From Candidatus Zixiibacteriota bacterium (lineage in GTDB: Bacteria; Zixibacteria; MSB-5A5; UM-FILTER-46-8): DNA of 33,130 nucleotides. The stretch covers positions 1 through 33,130 of the forward strand of contig WJIR01000105.1 of NCBI GenBank assembly GCA_014730175.1, written 5' to 3'. The translations under genes were made by a program, and so were the position numbers. Shown here in pieces: positions 2,764 to 19,517 of this stretch. Numbering within the stretch: position 1 is the first letter of the stretch; the number at the start of each line of letters is the position of its first letter. The notes below the pieces were generated by a model, which saw only the letters and a list, made by a program, of their open reading frames with translations, had not been told where the DNA came from and ran no database searches.

Positions 2764-2848
2764 CCGCCCTCGGAGAAAAACGTGAAGGTTAGATCCGAGG
2801 GACGGCTGGGAGAGACGAGTCTCCCGATTATAATATCGGGAACTCTCT
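2764..2848 (+). promoter_or_regulatory. Structured 5' leader with competing hairpins
   Basis: Three stems lie end to end ahead of the gene at 2884. The first pairs 2764-2774 with 2794-2805 (CCCTCGGA with TCCGAGGG, plus CCG/CGG across a bulged A). The second is GGGAGA (2808-2813) with TCTCCC (2819-2824). The third is CCCGAT (2823-2828) with ATCGGG (2835-2840). The second and third share bases at 2823-2824. GGGAGAG at 2808-2814 can also pair with CTCTC near 2843-2848, so alternative folds exist. No T-run follows, so it is not a simple terminator. It may be an RNA regulator or an mRNA-stabilising leader; no known riboswitch was recognised. Confidence 0.5.
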
Positions 2849-2883
2849 CATAATTTTCAACAACTTTTTAAAGGAGAAGTTCC

Positions 2884-3594
2884 ATGAACAAGATCCTGAT
2901 TTTATTGATTGGAATATTCCTGATCATTCCGATGACTGCGAATGCCACTCCGCCACCTGCTCACGGCGCCTATCAGGGCGGGTGGGGAATGAATCCTAAT
3001 AATTGGCAAACGACCACCGGATCCTTCAGCGCCTGGGGATTATATGATCCTGACGGAGGAGGCGGAGGAGCGGGTTGGATCGTTGATTGGTCTGATCCCA
3101 ACAATCCTGGTTATATAGATTATGAAGAGATCACATTAGAACTTTGGATAGAAATGTACTCACTGCAGACATACCATTACACTTCTTATCAATGGCATAG
3201 GCTCGGTGATGAAGAAGAGGAAATTTGCTTCATTATTGAAGGACTGATTCAGAGCAACAATGGTCAATATATTCAGCTAATGAAAGGTGATGATCCTTTA
3301 GATTATCTCTATTTCAGAGAGAATGTATTAGGCGGAAGTAGTTCAGACGCCAGAGATATACCGATTAGCTGGTCCGGAAGATGGGGTACAGGTACAGAAT
3401 ATGAGCAAAACTTCTATTGGCCCGATGACCAGGGCAATTGGGCTCCTTTAACTCCGGATCCAGACCTAACCTTAGAGCCGGTGCCAGCATGCGACCATTG
3501 GTTCCAGTTCCAGGGTTGCTTTACGCTCTTGTATCACGAAGCGGACGGGTATTATTCCCTGACAATGTCAGGTTGCCCGGCTCCAGTAATGTAG
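2884..3594 (+). CDS. Secreted beta-rich protein, possible pilin-like subunit
   Basis: 236 residues. Residues 1-21 are a signal peptide (MNKILILLIGIFLIIPMTANA). The mature part is rich in aromatic and glycine residues, with a GGGGGAG stretch. Four cysteines lie in the C-terminal two thirds. It shares a pattern with the protein at 5384-6013: D..LYF.EN(V/I)(L/F)G, then DIP(I/L)SW, then ADGYY.L near the C-terminus. I infer that the two are distant paralogues, perhaps substrates or subunits of the secretin encoded downstream. AAAGGAGAAG (2869-2878) is a good ribosome site. I recognise no named family. The C-terminal ADGYY.L strand only loosely recalls the last strand of small fimbrial subunits. 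Confidence 0.8.
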   Translation: MNKILILLIGIFLIIPMTANATPPPAHGAYQGGWGMNPNNWQTTTGSFSAWGLYDPDGGGGGAGWIVDWSDPNNPGYIDYEEITLELWIEMYSLQTYHYTSYQWHRLGDEEEEICFIIEGLIQSNNGQYIQLMKGDDPLDYLYFRENVLGGSSSDARDIPISWSGRWGTGTEYEQNFYWPDDQGNWAPLTPDPDLTLEPVPACDHWFQFQGCFTLLYHEADGYYSLTMSGCPAPVM

Positions 3595-3672
3595 ATCGCA
3601 GGTCAGCTGGAACCCGGCCAGCTGAGCTATTAATTATAACGAAATATCAGAGATACTAAGTCACAAATAAAT

Positions 3673-5343
3673 ATGCCAAATCGTCTTCAAGAAACCATAC
3701 ACCTAAGTTTTAAAATCGCTCTGTTCTTTTGTGTATTAATTCCCATTACCAGAGCCAATATACAAATAATCCCCCCAATCCAGGAGTTAGAGGTTACGCG
3801 GGGAGGCAGGGAGACTTTCATAATCACAATCATGAACAACAGCGATGAAGAAAGCCCTGGTAGATATAGCATACACGATCTGGACATAACCGAAGAAGGT
3901 AAACCGTTCATTGCTGATAGTTGCCTGCTCAGGGGATGCAGTAATTGGATAGAACTCAGCCCTCAGGAGTACTCCCTTTCACCACATGAATCGCTGCAGC
4001 TAAAGGGTAGCGTAACCGTACCTCGTGACGCGGAAGGCGGATATTACGGCTTAATCAAGGGTGAGTTCATCGATGTATCATTTCCTCTATCCGGTGAAAG
4101 AGCAAATATGAAGGAATCACAGATTGGGCTGAAAAGCCAGGCGGTGGTTGCGGTATTAATCACAGTTCCTTCCAGTAGGAATAAAGCGATTATTGTTCCC
4201 GACACGCTTCTTGTTTATCCACATGGTTCTCGAGGAAAATCACCGGTGATAACCGATTTCGGAACTCAGAAGGGGTGGGAGGTGATGATGCCGGTACGTA
4301 ATGATGGGAATATTCACACACGTGTTTCGGGTTTAGTGAGTATATACAGCGAAGCGGGAGCCCGAATCGGGTCGGCGCCTTTCAGAGCGGGTAAAGGATA
4401 TGTTCTGCCCGGGAAAACACGAAACCTGAACGCAACTGGCGATGGAATCCTCAATGATGGGTATTACATGTTACGTATTGCTTTGCAGACATCGGAAAAT
4501 CGATCTATGACAAACTCCTTCGCATTTGCTGTTTACGAAGGGGAAGTATATCCGGGCGCGATTAACGATGAAATAGCGAAATTAATACGCGCTTCTTCAC
4601 CGGGATTTGCACTCAGGGAGCCGTTTAAAGAAAAGAAGGTTACTCCCGGGGGAACTACTTACTTGCCAATAATGCTCATGAACACAATTGATGATACCAT
4701 CACCCTTGTACCTCGAAAACTGGAATGGAACTTAAATCAGGTGGGACAGCCCAAACTGGGAGTTGATGAAAGTCTGCAAACGCGTTCATGCACTCCATGG
4801 TTGGAGTTTATGAATGAGGAAATCGTCATACCGCCAGGACGCCGGCAATCCTTCAAGTTAAAAGTGAGTACTCCACCCGATATAGCCGGCGAGTACTATT
4901 CGGCTATTTCCTTTTTGGATTCAGATTTGAAAGAGGATTTGCCGGATGAATTCATGGCGGCGCGTACTCAGCTGATCGCTATTTCCAGCCCCAAGGATCT
5001 TGAGTATAAAGTGGAAGCAGACAGTATCCGGGTGAAACGCGAGGTCGCGCCGGAGTTAACGCTACACAGGTTCAGATTTAAGGTTCGCAATGAAGGTAAT
5101 GTTCACTGCTTTGTTTCCGGAGGGATGAGTTTTGAAAAAGAAGTTGCGGTAGGGGTATATAAACCATACGGAACCGCTAAAGACTTTGGTAGCAGGCAAA
5201 CATATATCCTTCCGGGTAACGAATTACCATTCGAGATTGATATGCCGAATATGGATTCCGGAACGTATAGAATAATACTGGCGGTAAATTATGCACAAGA
5301 TACGCAGCCAATAGTCAAGTATCAAAAGGTGGAGATTAATTAA
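3673..5343 (+). CDS. Secreted tandem Ig-like / periplasmic chaperone-like protein
   Basis: 556 residues with an N-terminal signal peptide (about 1-28, hydrophobic IALFFCVLIPI). The protein is an internal duplication. Each half begins with an Ig-like domain (about 30-130 and 305-415) containing a Cys-x-x-W(I/L)E or Cys-x-x-x-x-W pattern. A chaperone-like run follows in each (SPQEYSLSPHESLQLKGSVT; IPPGRRQSFKLKVSTPPDIA), ending in a GxYY motif. A second beta domain follows in each half, with (V/F)RN(D/E)GN(I/V)H and a YVLPG / YILPG motif. The 'proline-rich strand, N, LxPG' pattern resembles PapD-like pilus chaperones and DUF916-type Ig domains, but I cannot assign a family. No clear ribosome site precedes ATG 3673. 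It lies between two related secreted proteins and upstream of the secretin, which suggests a handling or stabilising role; that is inference. Confidence 0.75.
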   Translation: MPNRLQETIHLSFKIALFFCVLIPITRANIQIIPPIQELEVTRGGRETFIITIMNNSDEESPGRYSIHDLDITEEGKPFIADSCLLRGCSNWIELSPQEYSLSPHESLQLKGSVTVPRDAEGGYYGLIKGEFIDVSFPLSGERANMKESQIGLKSQAVVAVLITVPSSRNKAIIVPDTLLVYPHGSRGKSPVITDFGTQKGWEVMMPVRNDGNIHTRVSGLVSIYSEAGARIGSAPFRAGKGYVLPGKTRNLNATGDGILNDGYYMLRIALQTSENRSMTNSFAFAVYEGEVYPGAINDEIAKLIRASSPGFALREPFKEKKVTPGGTTYLPIMLMNTIDDTITLVPRKLEWNLNQVGQPKLGVDESLQTRSCTPWLEFMNEEIVIPPGRRQSFKLKVSTPPDIAGEYYSAISFLDSDLKEDLPDEFMAARTQLIAISSPKDLEYKVEADSIRVKREVAPELTLHRFRFKVRNEGNVHCFVSGGMSFEKEVAVGVYKPYGTAKDFGSRQTYILPGNELPFEIDMPNMDSGTYRIILAVNYAQDTQPIVKYQKVEIN

Positions 5344-5383
5344 CTATTGAACGGCACTCTATGAGGAGCAGATTGAACAAAAA

Positions 5384-6013
5384 ATGAACGCGAGAATCAT
5401 CGAAACAAGAATTTCCATTATTATAATTATCATACTCCTGAATATTCCGACCGTTTGGGCAGTCGCACCCAAAAAGGCTGAAATAAATGTGCCTTACCCA
5501 AATCATATAGATAAACGAGATTTCGCTAAAAAGAACATAATAAATCTGCCTGATTCAAAGGTTACCACTAAAAATGGACTTCCATTTGCGCAGCCGGATT
5601 ATCCCACGATTGACTTCCATCTCGATTGGACTACCTGTCAGATGCACAGAGTGGCATCCGATTCGACGGTTGAAATCCTGTTGGATGGCACTGTTTCAAT
5701 CGCCTTGAATTCGATCTGGACTCTCATTCCCGACAATCCAATCCCGCAGGCGGATCCTTCTCTGTACTTCGTAGAAAATATTTTCGGAGAGATCAATAAT
5801 CCCGACAATAGCGACATACCGTTATCATGGGAAATATCCATAAACGGTGGCGATTTCAAGTCAATTGAGAGACAATCGGATGGTTCCCTGAAAGTGCGTT
5901 TTCCGGCCGGGGATCACGCCTTTCAAGTGCGGATCAGCGGATATATACCAATTACGCAAGCCGATGGTTACTATAGACTACAACTTATCCAGAATATAAT
6001 TCCGGAACTATGA
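5384..6013 (+). CDS. Secreted protein related to the 2884-3594 product
   Basis: 209 residues with an N-terminal signal segment (hydrophobic ISIIIIIILLNIPTVWA). The C-terminal half contains DPSLYFVENIFGE, DIPLSWEISING and a final GYIPITQADGYYRLQLIQ. These match in order DPLDYLYFRENVLGG, DIPISW and EADGYYSL in the protein at 2884-3594. The IP..Q.ADGYY ending recalls the last beta strand of spore-coat-U or archaic chaperone-usher fimbrial subunits, an analogy only. GAGGAG at 5363-5368 is 15 bases from ATG 5384, rather far. It sits 40 bases after the chaperone-like gene and 98 bases before the secretin, probably in one transcript. Confidence 0.75.
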   Translation: MNARIIETRISIIIIIILLNIPTVWAVAPKKAEINVPYPNHIDKRDFAKKNIINLPDSKVTTKNGLPFAQPDYPTIDFHLDWTTCQMHRVASDSTVEILLDGTVSIALNSIWTLIPDNPIPQADPSLYFVENIFGEINNPDNSDIPLSWEISINGGDFKSIERQSDGSLKVRFPAGDHAFQVRISGYIPITQADGYYRLQLIQNIIPEL

Positions 6014-6111
6014 TGACTTTCAGTAACACGATATTAAATCGTACGATTTGGCTATCCATTATTAAGACACATTTTTCATCCGGTCTCAGGCGGGAGGGGG
6101 TGTAGAGTTCG

Positions 6112-7725
6112 ATGCGTTATTCACGGTACTATTTTAAAATTAGGCATATGATACTGATTATCACCTTCCTGTCAGCCTTTCTTGTGATTCCGAATGCCAA
6201 TGCAATAAAGAACAACAATCAAGTTAAGACAAATGATCAAATAGAATTGGAGAAACTCGTAAATCGATTAATTGCTGATCACTACTATAATGAGGCGGTC
6301 AGTCTGATGGAAAACAGGCTGCAAACGCAGGTTAACAGGCCTTTCAGGTTCTATCTTTTAACAAACTTGACGGAAGTTCATAACAAAACGGGCAACTATG
6401 CATTGGCGGCAGAGTATTTGTCGCAAGCGGAGTCAATCGCTTTAGCACCACAAGAACAACAGGTCATTATTAAGCTGAAGAGAAGTTTGCCGAGTAATTC
6501 GGCTGAAGAAAAATCAGATGTAGATCCCACGGTCTACGAGGATACTCTTTTAGAGACACAAAATAGCTCGATGTCAGATATTAATGAGGAATCGTTTCTA
6601 ATTTCTAATTCATTTTTCGAGATCGATCTCAGGCAGGTACTCACCGATCTTTCCATGGAATCAGGCATTCCGATAATCTGGGATAAAACCGTGCAGGGAT
6701 TGGTAACATACGAAGCTATCGACCAGGAACTGGAGGATGTCCTTAATGCGATTTTGACCCCGGCGGGATATGCGTACAAATATGACGGCAATATATATAT
6801 CGTGGGATCATCCAATCCGTCGGATCCCGCATTTGAACTGCTATCAGAAACCAAGTTAATATATCTGGCGAATATTGAGTCATCCGAAGCGATTGGGCTG
6901 CTCTCCGATTTTTTTAAGCCGTATGTTAAATCTTCGAAAAGCACGAACGCTGTTTGCATAACCGCCCCTGCATCGATTATCAGCAGAATAGAGGCAGACC
7001 TTGCTCAGATAGATGAGCCGGTGCAGCAGATACTGATCGATGTGGTAGTAACCGAGATCACCACAAGTGCGTTGCGACAGATGGGACTCGACTGGTCACT
7101 CACCAGGTCGTCAGGCAATCCATCCTGGAATGTACAAACAGATCATACAGACCTTGGCACCAAGGCGATTTCAGCAAGCTATGCTGATATGGCATTCGAT
7201 CTGGGAGATTACACCGGTGAGCTTTTGGGATCACTGGAAGCGCTGGTTCAATCAGGCGAAGCGAAAATCCGCGCTAATCCGCGTATTACTACGGTTAACG
7301 GCAACAAAGCTGAGATAGGAATAACCAAGGATCAGTACTTCATCATTCAAACCAGCACATCTCAAACTTATCAATATAATACACTGCAATCTATAAGCTC
7401 GGGGATAAAACTGGAGATAACCCCCTATATTTCGGGAGATAACAGTATAACGATACGGGTTAAACCTGAGGTTGGCGATGTAATAGGTTCTGGGAAAGAT
7501 GGCCTTCCTGAAATAAGCAGCAGGACTGCAAACACTGTTGTGCGGGTAAAAGATGGTGAAACATCGACCATAGGGGGATTGAATATTCAAACGGAGAAGG
7601 TGAGTCAGAATAAGATACCATTACTTGGGAGTATACCGATTCTGGGATATCTATTCAGGTATGACGAACGTGAGGTTCGGGATACCCAGATTATAATTTT
7701 TATCACGCCCCATTTGGTGAATTAG
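6112..7725 (+). CDS. Orphan secretin (outer-membrane channel) with helical-repeat N-terminus
   Basis: 537 residues; likely forms a ring-shaped outer-membrane pore. It has a signal peptide at about 1-31. A TPR-like helical stretch follows at about 42-126, then a short linker. An STN/N0 domain lies at about 167-232 (FFEIDLRQVLTDLSMESGIP), an N1-type domain at about 247-302 and the secretin core at 306-537. The hallmark KIPLLGSIPILGYLFR lies at 501-516, and the protein ends IIIFITPHLVN. This matches the GspD/PilQ superfamily. The AMIN domains, pilotin, PilMNOP, ATPases and prepilin genes that go with type II or type IV systems are absent nearby. GGGAGG at 6092-6097 is 14 bases from the ATG. Neighbours suggest it exports or anchors the small secreted proteins encoded beside it. 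Confidence 0.9.
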   Translation: MRYSRYYFKIRHMILIITFLSAFLVIPNANAIKNNNQVKTNDQIELEKLVNRLIADHYYNEAVSLMENRLQTQVNRPFRFYLLTNLTEVHNKTGNYALAAEYLSQAESIALAPQEQQVIIKLKRSLPSNSAEEKSDVDPTVYEDTLLETQNSSMSDINEESFLISNSFFEIDLRQVLTDLSMESGIPIIWDKTVQGLVTYEAIDQELEDVLNAILTPAGYAYKYDGNIYIVGSSNPSDPAFELLSETKLIYLANIESSEAIGLLSDFFKPYVKSSKSTNAVCITAPASIISRIEADLAQIDEPVQQILIDVVVTEITTSALRQMGLDWSLTRSSGNPSWNVQTDHTDLGTKAISASYADMAFDLGDYTGELLGSLEALVQSGEAKIRANPRITTVNGNKAEIGITKDQYFIIQTSTSQTYQYNTLQSISSGIKLEITPYISGDNSITIRVKPEVGDVIGSGKDGLPEISSRTANTVVRVKDGETSTIGGLNIQTEKVSQNKIPLLGSIPILGYLFRYDEREVRDTQIIIFITPHLVN

Positions 7726-7835
7726 AGGATAGATGGACGTACGAATAACAGGAATAGGGGTCGGATTCAGAGAAAACCGCCGCTTTTATATAGAAAGGTC
7801 ATTATTCGAAACAACTTTATCAAAAGGAGTAAGTT

Positions 7836-8564
7836 ATGAATAAACCAAGATTGATTTCAATAACCTTACTGGCGTTATTGATGTGCGGCGCGTATGCATA
7901 CGCCCAAGAACAGGAAGTGGTAATTTCTCCGATCGATCCACCAATCAATGTGCCCTGCGGAGGCGACTTTCTTTATGATCTCACCGTTATTAATCACGCA
8001 GATTCCACCGTAAGAATTGATGGCTGGACCGGTTTGACGTTACCCAACGGGAATTCATACGGACCTTTGTGCGTGAGACACCGCTGGCCCTTTCTAAGCG
8101 ACAGCACAGTGACATTCCATAATATTCCACGGCACGTTCCGAGTTACGCCCCACTCGGGGAATACTACTTCATATTCTACATCGGAGATTATCCAATTAT
8201 AACCGATTCTCATTACTTCGAGTTCACAGTAATTGAAGGAGATTTTACCGATAATCAAAGATGGGATCTATTCAGATATGAAGAGGAGTATAATACGCGT
8301 GATCTTACTGATGTGATATCGAATTATCCTAATCCATTCAACGCTACTACCACAATTTCATTTGAATTGTCCCAAGCGGGTAATGTAAATCTTGACATTT
8401 ACAACCTGGCGGGACAGAAAGTGGAATCCTTAGTAAAGGGGTATAAGGGTGCCGGAGTATATACTGCGAATTGGGATGCATCAAACAACTCAAGTGGCAT
8501 TTACCTCTATAGATTAAAGATTGGTGAGAATTCGATTACAAAGAGAATGACATTACTGAAGTAG
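7836..8564 (+). CDS. Small Ig-like secreted protein with type IX (Por) sorting tail
   Basis: 242 residues. Signal peptide at 1-23 (ends AYAYAQ). A single Ig-like beta domain spans about 30-130 (GGDFLYDLTVINHADSTVRI to HYFEFTVIEGD). An acidic linker follows, and then a sorting tail beginning SNYPNPFNATTTISF and ending KRMTLLK. Such tails direct proteins through the T9SS in Bacteroidetes. A strong ribosome site (AAAGGAG) precedes ATG 7836. It is the last gene of the secretin run, 110 bases after the secretin, and a terminator follows. It could be a surface partner of the fibre or secreted product; no specific function is recognised. Confidence 0.85.
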   Translation: MNKPRLISITLLALLMCGAYAYAQEQEVVISPIDPPINVPCGGDFLYDLTVINHADSTVRIDGWTGLTLPNGNSYGPLCVRHRWPFLSDSTVTFHNIPRHVPSYAPLGEYYFIFYIGDYPIITDSHYFEFTVIEGDFTDNQRWDLFRYEEEYNTRDLTDVISNYPNPFNATTTISFELSQAGNVNLDIYNLAGQKVESLVKGYKGAGVYTANWDASNNSSGIYLYRLKIGENSITKRMTLLK

Positions 8565-8591: not shown

Positions 8592-8617
8592 AAGGTCGGG
8601 AATCATTTCCCGACCTT
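8592..8617 (+). terminator. Rho-independent terminator ending the secretin gene run
   Basis: AAGGTCGGGAA (8592-8602) pairs with TTCCCGACCTT (8607-8617) around TCAT, followed by TTC. The stem is nearly the same as the terminator at 210-235, which also follows a sorting-tail gene. Confidence 0.9.
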
Positions 8618-8670
8618 TTCATTATCCGCCAATCCCCATAAGTTACCGCACTGCATTTGCTTGCGCACCA

Positions 8671-8710
8671 TACTCCCCGAGCAGGACTCGAACCTGCGAC
8701 AAGGTGGTTA
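8671..8710. repeat. 40-bp direct repeat, left copy (tRNA-Asn 3' half)
   Basis: Identical, base for base, to 9007-9046. It covers the 3' half of tRNA-Asn: acceptor 3' strand, T arm, variable loop and the anticodon up to TTA. The copies lie 336 bases apart and bracket the GIY-YIG gene, as an attachment-type duplication would. Confidence 0.9.
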
Positions 8711-8743
8711 ATCCCGCCCCGGCGGGACTCTACCAGCTGAGCT
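8673..8743 (-). pseudogene. Broken tRNA-Asn copy with palindrome insertion
   Basis: The 3' half (8673-8710) is identical to the intact tRNA-Asn, and 16 bases of the D-arm side (8728-8743) also match. The anticodon 5' side is replaced by the palindrome TCCCGCC-CC-GGCGGGA (8712-8727). The 5' acceptor strand that should close the stem is missing. It cannot fold as a working tRNA. Confidence 0.8.
8704..8735. repeat. 32-bp repeat with GC-rich palindrome, copy 1
   Basis: Identical to 9112-9143. Its centre is the palindrome TCCCGCC-CC-GGCGGGA, flanked by GTGGTTAA on one side and CTCTACCA on the other. Both flanks are tRNA sequence (anticodon 3' side and D arm), so the palindrome sits inside tRNA remnants. 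It resembles a REP-type element. Confidence 0.85.
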
Positions 8744-8986
8744 CTCAGTTATGAAGCGTTTTATGCCTCGCTTTTTAATTTTCTTTTCGAGCCGCATGGC
8801 GTCCGAACGCGAGGGAAGTTGGTCTTTCCATATCAATTCCCAAGGCCCCTTAAAACGCTTGGTAGTAAGTGTACCGGTATATTCAGGGTGATTATGCTGT
8901 TTTATACGGAGTTGCAAATTACGAGTTGAGCCGCAATAAAAGCGATTGCTGGTACGGCTGAAAAGAACGTAAACGTAAAATGCCAT
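8708..8986 (-). CDS. GIY-YIG nuclease family protein
   Basis: 92 residues, a single GIY-YIG (URI/UvrC-type) endonuclease domain. The GIY-YIG pair appears as FYVYVLFS (3-10) and FYCGST (16-21). An arginine follows at about 22-27, and E67 in AMRLEKKIKKR fits the catalytic glutamate. Small stand-alone proteins of this type (about 80-95 residues) are common in FCB genomes and their role is mostly unknown. The gene starts 22 bases downstream of tRNA-Asn on the same strand. Its last dozen or so codons (SSAGRVPPGRD) are read through a broken tRNA copy, so the original C-terminus may have been replaced. It may be a homing-type or mobile-module nuclease; that is inference. Confidence 0.8.
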   Translation of the reverse strand: MAFYVYVLFSRTSNRFYCGSTRNLQLRIKQHNHPEYTGTLTTKRFKGPWELIWKDQLPSRSDAMRLEKKIKKRGIKRFITESSAGRVPPGRD

Positions 8987-9006
8987 AATCCATTAATGAC
9001 AAGAAA

Positions 9007-9046
9007 TACTCCCCGAGCAGGACTCGAACCTGCGACAAGGTGGTTA
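9007..9046. repeat. 40-bp direct repeat, right copy (inside intact tRNA-Asn)
   Basis: Identical to 8671-8710. This copy forms the 3' half of the intact tRNA gene plus two bases beyond its discriminator. Confidence 0.9.
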
Positions 9047-9081
9047 ACAGCCACCCGCTCTACCAGCTGAGCTATCGGGGA
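9009..9081 (-). tRNA. tRNA-Asn (anticodon GTT)
   Basis: 73 bases on the minus strand. The acceptor stem pairs TCCCCGA with TCGGGGA and the discriminator is G. The D arm contains AGCTCAGCTGGTAGAG, the anticodon arm is GGGTGGCTGTTAACCACCT and the T arm contains AGGTTCGAGTCCT. The anticodon loop reads CTGTTAA, giving GTT for asparagine. The 3' CCA is not encoded (AGT follows the discriminator), so it must be added after transcription. Confidence 0.97.
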
Positions 9082-9095
9082 ATGTTCAAGTTCGT

Positions 9096-9158
9096 CTCCC
9101 GATTCGCCTTTGTGGTTAATCCCGCCCCGGCGGGACTCTACCAACTGAGTTATCGGGA
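9096..9158 (-). pseudogene. Second degenerate tRNA-like copy with the same palindrome
   Basis: Read on the minus strand it starts TCCCGATAACTCAGTTGGTA, a good tRNA 5' half. ATCGGGA near the 3' end can close a 7-bp acceptor stem (9152-9158 with 9097-9103). Between them the palindrome repeat replaces the anticodon arm and the T arm is reduced to a remnant (GGCGAATC). It is too short, and lacks the arms, for a functional tRNA. Confidence 0.65.
9112..9143. repeat. 32-bp repeat with GC-rich palindrome, copy 2
   Basis: Identical to 8704-8735. After it the two copies diverge (ACTGAGTT here, GCTGAGCT in copy 1), both still resembling a tRNA D arm. Confidence 0.85.
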
Positions 9159-9420
9159 ATTCTTTGATCTCGTTAAGATACTTCCGCAGCGCTTAATCAC
9201 GCTTCCAACGTAATTCCGCATACTGAATTATCGAAATATCAAAATTAAACTCTAAATTTTGTATCGCCAAATATAGATATAAACTGAGGGTTGTCAAGTA
9301 AAATTATCTTATATGTCATTCAATTCCGACCGTTCCCGTAAATTGTTGATTTCATGCTTGATTTATTCACTCGCATGCATTTATTATCTATCCTTAAAAT
9401 TAATCCAACTGGAGATAATA

Positions 9421-14920: not shown

Positions 14921-17113
14921 TTACTTCAGCAATAAAATCCGTTTTGATATCGTGAAATTATCGCTATTCAGCAAAACCAGATATATACCCGATGGATATT
15001 GTGAGGCATCCCATCTTATCTGGTGCGAACCTGCAGAAAGAATACCATCTTGAAGGTTTTCAATTCTTTTTCCCTGTATATTGAATATACTTAGGTTGAT
15101 ATAGGATTCTTCGCTCAACACGAATGAAATCGTTGTTGCTGCATTGAAAGGATTAGGATTATTCCGCAACACCGGATATAAATCCTCATCGGAACGTATC
15201 GCTTCAATAATAGTTGTCCCCTTTGATTGTTTGTCCTGGTAAATATCATAGTCGAGCATTGACCAGCTATTTTCTATCACTCTGCTTCGGTTTGCCATTT
15301 GGAACGGCACGTGCGCTTTACCGATAACTCGGAATTGAGCAATATCCGAACCGATCAGTGGATACACCTCGGGATGCGGCGATATCCTTATCAGGTGTTC
15401 ATACATTCCCGGAGGCGCGGTTTGGGGTATGGTATTTCTAAATGTGCCGCTGACTGTGCCATAGGGTAGGATGAAGAACATTTTGGGACTCAATGACGTC
15501 CATTCCATTGTGTCGTCAACGGGGCTGACAACTGCTTCAATCCAAATAGGAATTGACTGGGAAGTGGGATTAGATGCAATAAACTCGGTCACAAGCGTGT
15601 CCCCGTAGAAGAGTTCTTCATCTTCGATTGAAACCGTAACATCCAACTGAGGATATACTATTAGATTCATAGAAATGGAGGTATCCTCCAGTCCCGGTTG
15701 ATTGGAATCGAAATAAATTGAGGTTGAGTAGTTGACTTGGGTAAAACTCTCCGGATTAACTTCCGCTTCAACGGTAACTGTATCCCCGCGGTCAAGATAA
15801 ACCGAATCGGGATAAAACGATACCCAGGACGAGTCACAAATCGGTTTTACATATCCTGAGGAGGCCTGGGAATATATATCGAATGGCAGATGAACAAGAG
15901 AATCCGCATAAATACCTGTATCGAAATCCTCTTCGTTATATTCCAGTTTAAAGTCTATTACCACCTTTAGCAACCAGAAATCATAGCCGCCGTTCCCGAA
16001 TGAGCGGGTGGAACCGGCAACCATGTAGCTACCATCTGGGGCTTGTCTCACGATGACCCGGTTATAGGCAGCTCCTTCATCTTCGTATCCTCCGAAGGTT
16101 TTCGACCACTTCTCCCTTCCGAGCGTATCGGTTTTTATTATATGGAAATCGGAATCACCATTGCCGAACGAAGTGCTTCGACCACTGATTACATAACCCC
16201 CATCGATTGTCTGCTGGGCATAATGAGCTTCATCGTCCGAGGCGCCTCCAAGCAATCTGACCCATTCATCACCCACATACTCATTCACTTTCCCTAATAC
16301 ATAGTTATTCCCATGATTTTGGGTTTCAACATAGCCTGCGATAATATATCCCTCATCGGAGGTTCGTTCCATACTGTATGCATACTCCCGATTATCGGTT
16401 TGTTTTTTGAGGGTGGATAGAGTATCCCCGTTGGAAAACAGTTTTAGAATCCAGATGTTGGTTGCAAGCTGGCCGAACGATGCTGTTGAACCCAGAATTA
16501 TGTATCCGCCGTTATCCACTTGTGTCGCATCCCACCCCTCGTCCCTGGAATATCCTCCGTAGGTTCTACTCCATAGAGTATCGCCATTTTCATCCGTTTT
16601 TATAATGTAGATGTCCCTATCGCCGGCACCGAAGGATTGGGTCCAACCCGAAATTAGATAACCACCATCATTTGTCTCCATGACACTTCGGGCGACATCC
16701 CAGGAGTCACCTCCGATTGACTTATTCCAAACCTCGTTACCGAACTCATCGGTTTTGACGTAATATACGTCGCCGGTGTATTCACCGAATGCTCTGCTGT
16801 ATCCCGCTAACAGGTAACCGCCATCCGAGGTTTGTATAGCTGCATACGCTTCATCGTTTTCAGTACCGCCATACAGGCGAGTCCAGAGCGTATCACCGAG
16901 TGAATCGATCTTAACCAGATAGAAATCCCAATCGCCGGTAAATGAATTGGTTGACCCCGCCAGTATATAACCCCCATCCGATGTTCTCTCCAGAGTTTCC
17001 AGATATTCCTGATATTCTCCCCCGTATGTCTCAGTCCATAATGTATCAAGCGCAATAATTTCCGGTGTAAACAATAGTAGATACAATATTATCAAGCCCG
17101 AAATTCTAATCAT
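14921..17113 (-). CDS. Secreted seven-repeat propeller protein with type IX sorting tail
   Basis: 730 residues. Signal peptide at about 1-21 (ISGLIILYLLLFTPEIIA). Seven repeats of about 52 residues cover roughly 23-395. Each follows (D)TLWxxxYGG..DEA...QTSDGGY(I/L)LAG.....FG.GD.D.Y(I/L)VKTD..G. Seven blades suggest a beta-propeller. Then come an Ig/BACON-like region (about 395-600, with GYVKPICDSSWVSFYPDS) and a sorting tail starting NNPNPFNAATTISF and ending KRILLLK. The protein is likely exported and surface-attached, perhaps binding glycans or proteins; no catalytic motif was seen. GGGAGGAA precedes the ATG. It is a paralogue of the gene at 17211-19517, which lies directly upstream. Confidence 0.88.
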   Translation of the reverse strand: MIRISGLIILYLLLFTPEIIALDTLWTETYGGEYQEYLETLERTSDGGYILAGSTNSFTGDWDFYLVKIDSLGDTLWTRLYGGTENDEAYAAIQTSDGGYLLAGYSRAFGEYTGDVYYVKTDEFGNEVWNKSIGGDSWDVARSVMETNDGGYLISGWTQSFGAGDRDIYIIKTDENGDTLWSRTYGGYSRDEGWDATQVDNGGYIILGSTASFGQLATNIWILKLFSNGDTLSTLKKQTDNREYAYSMERTSDEGYIIAGYVETQNHGNNYVLGKVNEYVGDEWVRLLGGASDDEAHYAQQTIDGGYVISGRSTSFGNGDSDFHIIKTDTLGREKWSKTFGGYEDEGAAYNRVIVRQAPDGSYMVAGSTRSFGNGGYDFWLLKVVIDFKLEYNEEDFDTGIYADSLVHLPFDIYSQASSGYVKPICDSSWVSFYPDSVYLDRGDTVTVEAEVNPESFTQVNYSTSIYFDSNQPGLEDTSISMNLIVYPQLDVTVSIEDEELFYGDTLVTEFIASNPTSQSIPIWIEAVVSPVDDTMEWTSLSPKMFFILPYGTVSGTFRNTIPQTAPPGMYEHLIRISPHPEVYPLIGSDIAQFRVIGKAHVPFQMANRSRVIENSWSMLDYDIYQDKQSKGTTIIEAIRSDEDLYPVLRNNPNPFNAATTISFVLSEESYINLSIFNIQGKRIENLQDGILSAGSHQIRWDASQYPSGIYLVLLNSDNFTISKRILLLK

Positions 17114-17210
17114 AAGTTCCTCCCTAAATCAGATAGTCGTTCCATTAACTAACCTTGTTTCGTTCATTTCGGTTTTTATCATTCTCATACGGATTGTAAA
17201 AGCTCCAGTA

Positions 17211-19517
17211 CTACTTTATTAGCGCCATTCTGTTACGGATAATACGGTTGCCGGCGGTCAGTTGGTAGAAATAGACCCCGGATGCGAAATCCGAAGCGTC
17301 CCAGTTTACACTATATTCCCCCGGTAGATGCCGTTTATTAACGACAGTCTGAATCATTCTTCCGCTAAGATTATATATGTCGATGCGGACCCTTGATTCC
17401 TCGGAGACAAAGTATCTTATCTCTGTAACCGCATTAAATGGATTTGGATAGTTGGGAAACAGAATCAAATCCGATCGATCATCAGACATCGCTGAGAAGT
17501 CGTTCTGTGGAACAAAATCGCCGAAATCAGAATACAGAAGATCCCAGGTCTCTTTGCTCGATTTATCATATCGCAACAGCGGATAAGACTGAGCCGCCAC
17601 CGTCTCAACTATAAAGCTCATACTCTGTTGGGATAAGTGATTTTCGAGCTCGGGAAACGCCAGCAAGTCAACATGATACTGATATTCGCCTTCCGGGATA
17701 TCAGGCGGAGTGTTGTTCTCAATGAGACCGGTGATCTCTCCGTAGGGGAAAAAGACAAGGGTTTTCGGACCATAGAGGTCCCATATCAATGTATCGGGCG
17801 GATACTCCGCATACACCGAGAAAGAACCGCTTACGTATTGAGGCGTTGGATTGGACAGTCTAATAAATGATTTTAAGGTATCTCCCGGATTAATGGGATT
17901 TGTTAATATCTCCATTTCGATAGCGATTGGCGGATTAACTTCGATATCGGCTATTATACTATATCCATCTAATCCCGGAAGGTTGGACACAAAATCTATC
18001 TCACCGGAATAGTCATGAAACGGCATCAAGCCAGGATCGATCGTCACCGCAAAGGTTGAAGTATCGCCCGGCTGTAAGTAAGCGGAATCCGGTTCGAATC
18101 CGATCCAGTTGGAATCGGAATATGGTTTAACATATCCTTGCGATAATTCCGATGATACTCTGAATTCCCGGTGATATAGTGAATCACCGAAAGTTTCGAA
18201 CTCATAGTCCTCCGGATTATATTGAAGGTTGAAATCGACCGCGATGTTGAACATCCGAATATCGTGTCCGCTCGCATCGAGAATACCCGTTGGCCCGATA
18301 ACCATAAATCGATTTATGCCGGTTTCCAGTGCGGTTATTCGATTCCATGGGTAACCCAAACTATTGTTAGCGTCGATAGTTTCCGTCCAGCTTGTATCGC
18401 CATTTGCGAGCGTTTTGACAATATGGATGTCGTTACCGGTTGAGTAGCGATCCGATCTTAATCCTCCCACGATGTAGCCGCCGTCATCAGTTGATTGCAC
18501 AAAATGAGCCTTCTCATCCGCTTGCTTGCCATAAATCCGACTCCAAATAGGAGAACCCGACCGGCTGACCTTGAATAACATAAAATCGGAAGCCCTACTC
18601 GGCATGAACTCGGAGTATCCCGCAATTATATAATCCCCGTTGGCGGTGCTGTCCAAACAGTATGCATAATCATTTGTCTCACCTCCATGTGTATAATCCC
18701 AGATCATCTCTCCGGAACTATCCAGCTCCATGACCCAGGCATCATAGGCGCCCATCCCGTATGACCTGGTCGCCCCCGCAATAACGAAGTTCCCATCCCC
18801 GGTTTCCATAACCGACCACGCCTCATCATGATCATTACCCCCAATACGCTTTGTCCAGAGCGTATCTCCGTAGAAATCCATTTTCATCACCAAGATATCC
18901 CTATCCTCCCCCTGGTCCGAAGCGGTCCATCCGACAGCAATCGAACCAAGGTCAGCGGTCTCACGGATACAGGTGGCTCTATCCTCCCCTTCCCAACCGT
19001 ATGCGAGAAGCGAGATGATAATTCCATCGGCATTAGCCCTTACAAGTATGATATCTCCAAGCTCATCGCCTAATCCGGTGCTGTATCCGGTGAATACATA
19101 TCCTCCGTTATTCGTCTGATCTACCGACTGCAGCTTCTCCACAGATTGACCACCGATAATCTTGGTCCAAAGGGTGTCGCCCAAAGAATCGGTTCTAACG
19201 ATGTAAGCATCCTGATTATCTCTGGCAAAAGTAGAACCGGCGAATATAAAGCCGCCGTCATCGGTGCGCTTTGCCGCTTCGACGAAATCGTGCGCATCGG
19301 ATCCGATTGTTGCTGTCCATAGAGTATCAACTCCGGTTTTGGAACGGTCATTTACCATTTCATCAGTAGATGTCGGCTGATTGGCGTACTCGTGAATATT
19401 TGAAGAGCCGGGATTGTTAAAACCTGCATCTACCGATACCGGATTAACCGCCGCAATAATGTTTCCGCAAATGAAAAAGGTTGATACAACTATTAAAGCA
19501 ATCATTGTTCTGAACAT
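17211..19517 (-). CDS. Secreted seven-repeat propeller protein, paralogue of 14921-17113
   Basis: 768 residues. N-terminal signal (MIALIVVSTFFICGNIIAA) and a short disordered stretch. Seven repeats follow, from DTLWTATIGSDAHDFVEAAK to GINRFMVIGPTGILDASGHD, with the same DGGY / AGxT / D.(Y/I)(I/L)V core as its neighbour. Next comes the same Ig-like region (GYVKPYSDSNWIGFEPDSAY, QPGDTSTF), then FPNYPNPFNAVTEIRYFVS and a sorting tail ending NRMALIK. Blades 3 and 7 are the most degenerate. GGAGGAGG just before the ATG is a strong ribosome site. The gene ends 97 bases before the paralogue starts, so they may share a transcript. They look like a tandem duplication that has diverged widely. Confidence 0.88.
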   Translation of the reverse strand: MFRTMIALIVVSTFFICGNIIAAVNPVSVDAGFNNPGSSNIHEYANQPTSTDEMVNDRSKTGVDTLWTATIGSDAHDFVEAAKRTDDGGFIFAGSTFARDNQDAYIVRTDSLGDTLWTKIIGGQSVEKLQSVDQTNNGGYVFTGYSTGLGDELGDIILVRANADGIIISLLAYGWEGEDRATCIRETADLGSIAVGWTASDQGEDRDILVMKMDFYGDTLWTKRIGGNDHDEAWSVMETGDGNFVIAGATRSYGMGAYDAWVMELDSSGEMIWDYTHGGETNDYAYCLDSTANGDYIIAGYSEFMPSRASDFMLFKVSRSGSPIWSRIYGKQADEKAHFVQSTDDGGYIVGGLRSDRYSTGNDIHIVKTLANGDTSWTETIDANNSLGYPWNRITALETGINRFMVIGPTGILDASGHDIRMFNIAVDFNLQYNPEDYEFETFGDSLYHREFRVSSELSQGYVKPYSDSNWIGFEPDSAYLQPGDTSTFAVTIDPGLMPFHDYSGEIDFVSNLPGLDGYSIIADIEVNPPIAIEMEILTNPINPGDTLKSFIRLSNPTPQYVSGSFSVYAEYPPDTLIWDLYGPKTLVFFPYGEITGLIENNTPPDIPEGEYQYHVDLLAFPELENHLSQQSMSFIVETVAAQSYPLLRYDKSSKETWDLLYSDFGDFVPQNDFSAMSDDRSDLILFPNYPNPFNAVTEIRYFVSEESRVRIDIYNLSGRMIQTVVNKRHLPGEYSVNWDASDFASGVYFYQLTAGNRIIRNRMALIK

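Follow-up and report, generated by a model that had tools for sequence, protein, structure and literature searches.

How might a bacterium carry secreted subunits across its outer membrane when the genes at hand encode a pore and a chaperone-like protein, and none encodes a motor? This question is raised by a gene cluster in a 33,130-nucleotide stretch of DNA, here called the window, from Candidatus Zixiibacteriota bacterium (contig WJIR01000105.1 of assembly GCA_014730175.1). The cluster consists of five plus-strand open reading frames (ORFs), A to E, which lie between positions 2884 and 8564, exactly where a first-pass annotation had placed them. That annotation compared the cluster with a chaperone-usher operon in which a secretin takes the position of the usher. 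A signal peptide can be read from the sequence at the start of each ORF. As the annotation had also claimed, the cluster holds no gene for an ATPase, a platform protein or a prepilin. The explanation favoured here, with a probability of roughly 55%, is that a chaperone guides pilin-like subunits to a dedicated secretin, through which they are exported or assembled and which has no ATPase of its own.

The two central genes are B (3673-5343, plus strand, 556 amino acid residues), the chaperone-like protein, and D (6112-7725, plus strand, 537 residues), the secretin. A first search of 98 relatives detected B in 9 genomes, and a scan of genome contigs with B matched a single close Zixibacteria contig. 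When 133 Zixibacteria genomes were searched with a B profile, 12 matched: 10 with a D-linked B and two with weak half-length matches only. D is in the same cluster as B in all 10. The reverse search, with a D profile, found 12 D-type secretins in these 133 genomes, 10 of them in genomes that bear B. The two without B belong to G089, whose contig begins 78 base pairs (bp) before D, and to a genome that is 52% complete. The reverse search in Thermotogota gives the same pattern. A wider search located B in other phyla as well, including 35 of 103 genomes of the Thermotogota, the phylum of G323.

The arrangement of the pair can be followed through 31 B loci, which come from three phyla, Zixibacteria and Thermotogota among them. 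B and D share one co-directional cluster in 30 of them. In 26 the two genes touch (an overlap, mostly of 4 bp, or a gap of at most 26 bp), in three C stands between them, and in one D lies just upstream of A. In the last, from G409, B and D are 2.5 kb apart on opposite strands. Within the Zixibacteria, C separates B from D in close relatives and the order in G005 is D-A-B-C; the distant members read subunits-B-D, and there the last two genes overlap or are no more than 26 bp apart. Secreted beta-rich subunits are normally found upstream of B. G478 has two complete loci with B beside D in both, and the G475 locus reads subunits-B-D-F, F being a further gene described below. B and D are a linked pair, part of a conserved subunit-B-D module. 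The co-occurrence expected of relatives is therefore borne out for the subunits, B and D, whose linkage extends over three phyla, but not for E, which is missing from most of the loci.

The protein encoded by D consists of a signal peptide, a helical N-terminal region, an STN/N0 domain, an N1 domain and a secretin domain. Its identification as a secretin is secure (PF00263, E 4.9e-42, plus Secretin_N and STN). Its scores for the NCBIfam PilQ and GspD families are under the cut-offs, TIGR02516 (SctC-type) gives 137 bits against a cut-off of 238, and no type III export apparatus genes are present in the cluster. A tree was built from 54 sequences, namely 25 D proteins and 29 PilQ-type, HofQ, GspD and other secretins. 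It omits the very divergent G436 secretin (branch 4.4) and contains no Tad RcpA reference, and in it all 25 D proteins fall on one side of a branch with support of 95/89. D is set apart from normal PilQ and GspD, as the first-pass annotation had supposed. A canonical type II secretion system (T2SS), type III secretion system (T3SS) or type IV pilus (T4P) locus is ruled out by the lack of partner genes and by the separate secretin clade. The D secretin of G018 carries, as a fusion, an N-terminal barrel resembling OMPP1/FadL (L019:6472-8781; PF03349, 2e-5).

B consists of two copies of a unit made of two immunoglobulin (Ig)-type domains. The proposed duplication is confirmed by the comparison of half 1 with half 2 (hhalign Prob 100, E 9e-39). 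Both halves form one family with single units that stand alone in other genomes (Prob 100, E 1e-38 to 1e-41). Two groups of known proteins come near this family. One is the WxLIP group: WxLIP_PGBD (PF06030) matches six of seven B members, above the cut-off in Thermotoga maritima B and below it in the window B, and the top Foldseek match of the AlphaFold model of B (mean confidence, pLDDT, 42) is the WxLIP structure 9i1y, E 6e-5. The models were built from window and L022 sequences. DUF3324 is not matched in B. For WxLIP proteins, AlphaFold2 predicts that a strand of a DUF916 hairpin is inserted into the partner next to its N-terminus (PMC10599100).

The other group is that of the fimbrial chaperones. 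A profile of 58 pooled B units matches EcpB/EcpE with Prob 65 and the FimC family with Prob 54, values short of the usual certainty. In the controls, 60 column shuffles gave at most 1.3 and reversed alignments at most 0.9, while FimC against Ecp gave 2.4. B and EcpB also have two motifs in common, N-x-G-N in domain 2 and (L/M)PG further on. There is no Pfam match to PapD in B and no match in a sequence search of the PDB. On these comparisons B can be placed near WxLIP and, weakly yet well clear of the shuffled controls, near the fimbrial chaperones, with no firm place in either. The PapD-like fold suggested for B thus has the profile matches in its favour, whereas the structural model, itself of poor quality, comes closest to WxLIP.

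The single-unit relatives of B provide a view of what may stand in the place of D. In five genomes (loci L072, L074, L076, L078 and L079) a single B unit is preceded by small secreted proteins, of DUF4402 type in some and in one with a DUF4402 match above the cut-off. It is followed by a barrel-type outer-membrane protein of 813-1091 residues, with C-terminal SdrD_B or carboxypeptidase-regulatory-like domains. These barrels are read as usher-like from their size, their place, a plug-like stretch and their C-terminal Ig-type domains, and the loci likely represent a divergent chaperone-usher family. If this is right, then the secretin holds the place of the usher in B-D loci. Of the original idea of a secretin in the usher position, a secretin of a separate clade, linked with B, is what is observed; that it acts as an usher is inferred.

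The likely cargo is represented in the window by A (2884-3594, plus strand, 236 residues), a secreted beta-rich subunit, and C (5384-6013, plus strand, 209 residues), a secreted pilin-like subunit. As claimed, the two are related (phmmer 3e-6, and the A3 alignment). Relatives of C with 39-40% identity lie next to both B and D in G002, and in the G005 cluster they lie next to B, where relatives of A are found too. In the distant Zixibacteria loci the subunits belong to another family, A4, and profile comparison connects this family with A and C (Prob 90.5, E 1.3e-6). No match to the distant subunits appeared in a PDB sequence search, and no WxL domain was detected by Pfam or NCBIfam in A, C or the Thermotoga subunits. 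The AlphaFold model of C is weak (pLDDT 49). Of its top 50 Foldseek matches in the PDB, 19 are chaperone-usher fimbrial subunits or adhesin domains, including CfaB, FedF, FimA, FimI, PapE, PapG and CsuE; none reaches E 0.001. In many A4-type subunits the signal peptide is directly followed by a strand-like motif of alternating type (LEVWKY and VDVYAY are examples), which would suit a donor strand and is a candidate for one.

An example of the module in a cultured organism can be found in T. maritima (G477). The protein at L126:5875-6150 matches TM1112 of the PDB over its full length, with no mismatch beyond the start. Directly after it come a long subunit, two A4-type subunits, B, D and a sixth gene, F. 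By gene order this set should be TM1113-TM1118. Since it follows TM1112, and a table of Thermotoga competence genes lists TM1117 as pilQ beside TM0088 (PMC5637354), TM1117 is taken to be D. No other Thermotoga paper on TM1113-TM1118 was among the matches listed in the open-access literature. F, found after D in Thermotogota and in G177 and absent from the window, is a degenerate secretin-like protein (L126:11468-12577, L069:3685-5484, L136:11225-12625 and L170:8137-9441). Its sequence shows secretin domains of N0/N1 type, or else what is left of a secretin domain, ahead of a barrel-like end. A regulator with a BTAD domain (L126:12687-13748) adjoins the T. maritima locus, and similar ORFs lie beside several other Thermotogota loci.

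In the favoured model, the Sec pathway would first move the pilin-like subunits (A and C, or the TM1113-TM1115 type in Thermotoga) into the periplasm. Here B, as a double two-Ig chaperone of the WxLIP/fimbrial-chaperone superfamily, would bind them and keep them competent, probably by lending them a beta strand. The subunits would then exit through D. This secretin would serve the system alone and would occupy the place of the usher-sized barrel of the single-unit loci. Once outside, they may be displayed or polymerised on the cell surface. Because no dedicated ATPase is encoded, the driving force is presumed to be the folding or polymerisation of the subunits outside the cell, as in chaperone-usher pili or curli.

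Several points weigh against this model. Both AlphaFold models, of B and of C, are of low confidence (pLDDT 42 and 49), and the pilin matches of the C model all fall short of E 0.001. Sequence comparison of the subunits with FimA-type pilins detects nothing (hhalign Prob ≤1). B lies nearer to WxLIP than to PapD, and all five usher-sized barrels compare with the FimD profile at Prob <2. No secretin is known that serves as an usher by itself. Finally, ATPases of the T2SSE family or T4P type occur in every B-D genome tested, so that an energy supply shared with the T4P is possible. For this reason, the lack of a motor for D is to be understood as local and by count.

The ATPases also bear on another explanation, in which D is a second outer-membrane pore of a T4P or type II-like machine, export is driven by a distant PilB/PilC, and B is an accessory. 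The listing of TM1117 as pilQ speaks for it too. However, these machines already have their own PilQ. Besides D, the window genome has one other secretin, a PilQ whose pilM-N-O-PilQ operon lies on another contig (L021), and PilB/PilT/PilC are on a third (L083); the T4P machine with its own PilQ is thus elsewhere in the genome. In G018 and G010, PilQ likewise sits in ordinary pilMNO operons. Among complete genomes, G018, G477 and G479 each encode two secretins, with a pilus secretin separate from D, and a single PilB-type ATPase; G478, with two B-D loci, encodes three secretins and again a single PilB-type ATPase. No pseudopilin, platform protein or inner-membrane alignment protein was seen near the B-D loci read, and assembly ATPases, platform proteins and prepilins are absent both from these neighbourhoods and from the window. 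D forms a clade of its own, and its linkage is with B rather than with pilus genes. A second pore is accordingly considered unlikely. A second ATPase was also considered as the motor of D in the window genome and rejected: the candidate on C157, a 714-residue GAF-GspE-like protein, has neither a secretin nor a pseudopilin as its neighbour, and G018 and G010 have no second assembly ATPase. This lone GspE-like ATPase, with its GAF-like N-terminal part, occurs in two related genomes (L082:9896-12040 and L087:7497-9641).

Two other explanations keep the pair together and assign it a different task. Curli are exported through an oligomeric outer-membrane channel, CsgG, without an ATPase, and have an Ig-like periplasmic chaperone, CsgC. 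By analogy, D could be a diffusion channel and B could serve only to prevent the subunits from folding, with the fibre nucleating outside without strand exchange. The lack of a dedicated ATPase in the D cluster fits this as well. Yet the subunits are large and beta-rich with no evident amyloid-type repeats, and the B units are nearer in size and layout to two-domain fimbrial chaperones and WxLIP than to CsgC; such a route is improbable, if slightly less so than a second pore. Alternately, B may be a scaffold. WxLIP proteins have been proposed to anchor WxL proteins in Firmicutes, and B might similarly anchor the subunits to peptidoglycan or to the inner face of the outer membrane, with the secretin as an envelope ring that does not export them. 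The PF06030 matches, above the cut-off in T. maritima, and the first rank of 9i1y in the fold search speak for this. But the subunits lack a WxL domain in Pfam and NCBIfam scans, a dedicated B-linked secretin is hard to explain without the passage of a substrate, and the single-unit relatives of B sit with large barrels and DUF4402-type subunits. A scaffold is the least probable of these explanations, and a very doubtful one.

The remaining features of the cluster lie at its ends. E (7836-8564, plus strand, 242 residues) is an Ig-like protein, co-directional with the others and outside the conserved core. Its sorting tail is that of the type IX secretion system (T9SS; PF18962, 1.2e-11, and TIGR04183). 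With this tail, and with no conservation beside B and D, its proposed role as a tip protein is not upheld. Upstream of A, a structured leader (2764-2884, plus strand) has two stable hairpins and then a hairpin that holds the Shine-Dalgarno sequence of gene A. The RNA fold of positions 2740-2885 has an energy of -49 kcal/mol against a mean of -33 for 200 shuffles (z -4.4), in agreement with the first reading, and matches no Rfam family. The cluster ends in a terminator-like feature (8592-8619) with an 11-pair palindrome at 8592-8617, which can serve as a terminator; the strong terminator described earlier is to that extent present, but the terminator scanner reported it for the minus strand alone.

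Elsewhere in the window, a GIY-YIG-like ORF (8708-8986, minus strand) adjoins an intact tRNA (9009-9081, minus strand), with tRNA-like fragments on both sides. Two of these fragments carry the palindrome AATCCCGCCCCGGCGGGACT. The region (8679-9160) looks like a small mobile insertion, or one of the repetitive extragenic palindrome (REP) type, at a tRNA. Further on (14921-19517) are two large tandem proteins with T9SS tails and many 'DTLW...GG' repeats, probably propeller-like proteins of the cell surface.

According to a published report (PMC4793230), Thermotogae stand alone among diderm clades in having none of the types of protein secretion system that were looked for. If the favoured model is true, it would provide a secretion route in Thermotogota, including T. 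maritima, where no standard system had been found. Secretins are otherwise familiar from ATPase-driven machines and from filamentous phages; one whose gene keeps company with those of a chaperone and of pilin-like subunits would put this pore to a new use, and the system would connect the WxLIP proteins of Firmicutes with the chaperones of diderms. As T. maritima carries the set next to TM1112, the model can be tested in a cultured and well-studied organism. More tentatively, and with odds slightly short of even, the cluster may define a new class of secretion and fibre assembly in Zixibacteria and Thermotogota, including T. maritima, in which a double chaperone of WxLIP/fimbrial type hands subunits to an ATPase-free secretin that replaces the usher. 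In the open-access literature, no description of a system of this kind was found, nor any paper that joins secretin, chaperone-usher and Zixibacteria, or 'orphan secretin' with usher.

How, then, does the cluster compare with known systems? Like the chaperone-usher pathways (alpha/ECP, with the chaperones EcpB/EcpE and the usher EcpC, and FimC/FimD), it brings together secreted subunits rich in beta structure, a two-Ig chaperone-like protein and a pore in the outer membrane, with no ATPase, and its B units have a distant profile match to EcpB/EcpE and FimC. Unlike them, it has a secretin as its pore and no usher barrel (PF00577 or alpha-type) in a Pfam scan of the five genes and in the 31 loci inspected. 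Its chaperone-like protein is a tandem duplicate, and its subunits have no sequence match to known pilins. With the WxLIP (DUF916-DUF3324)/WxL clusters of Firmicutes it shares small secreted partners, a putative two-Ig binding protein and the matches of B to WxLIP_PGBD and to a crystal structure. It differs from these in its diderm hosts, its duplicated B and its secretin, and in that no WxL domain was found and no C-terminal membrane helix is seen in B. D has the N0, N1 and secretin domain architecture of PilQ, GspD and HofQ, but it belongs to a separate clade, has no motor or prepilins in its cluster and is linked with B. What it would share with curli (the type VIII secretion system), an outer-membrane channel that needs no ATPase and an Ig-like helper in the periplasm, is a working principle: the channel is unrelated, there is no CsgE or CsgF, and the cluster has no CsgG-type or curli-repeat Pfam match. 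Since no known kind fits on the features tested, the system is set apart from all of them. It is probably an undescribed route for the transport or assembly of surface proteins without the usual motor, and it may work like the chaperone-usher pathway.

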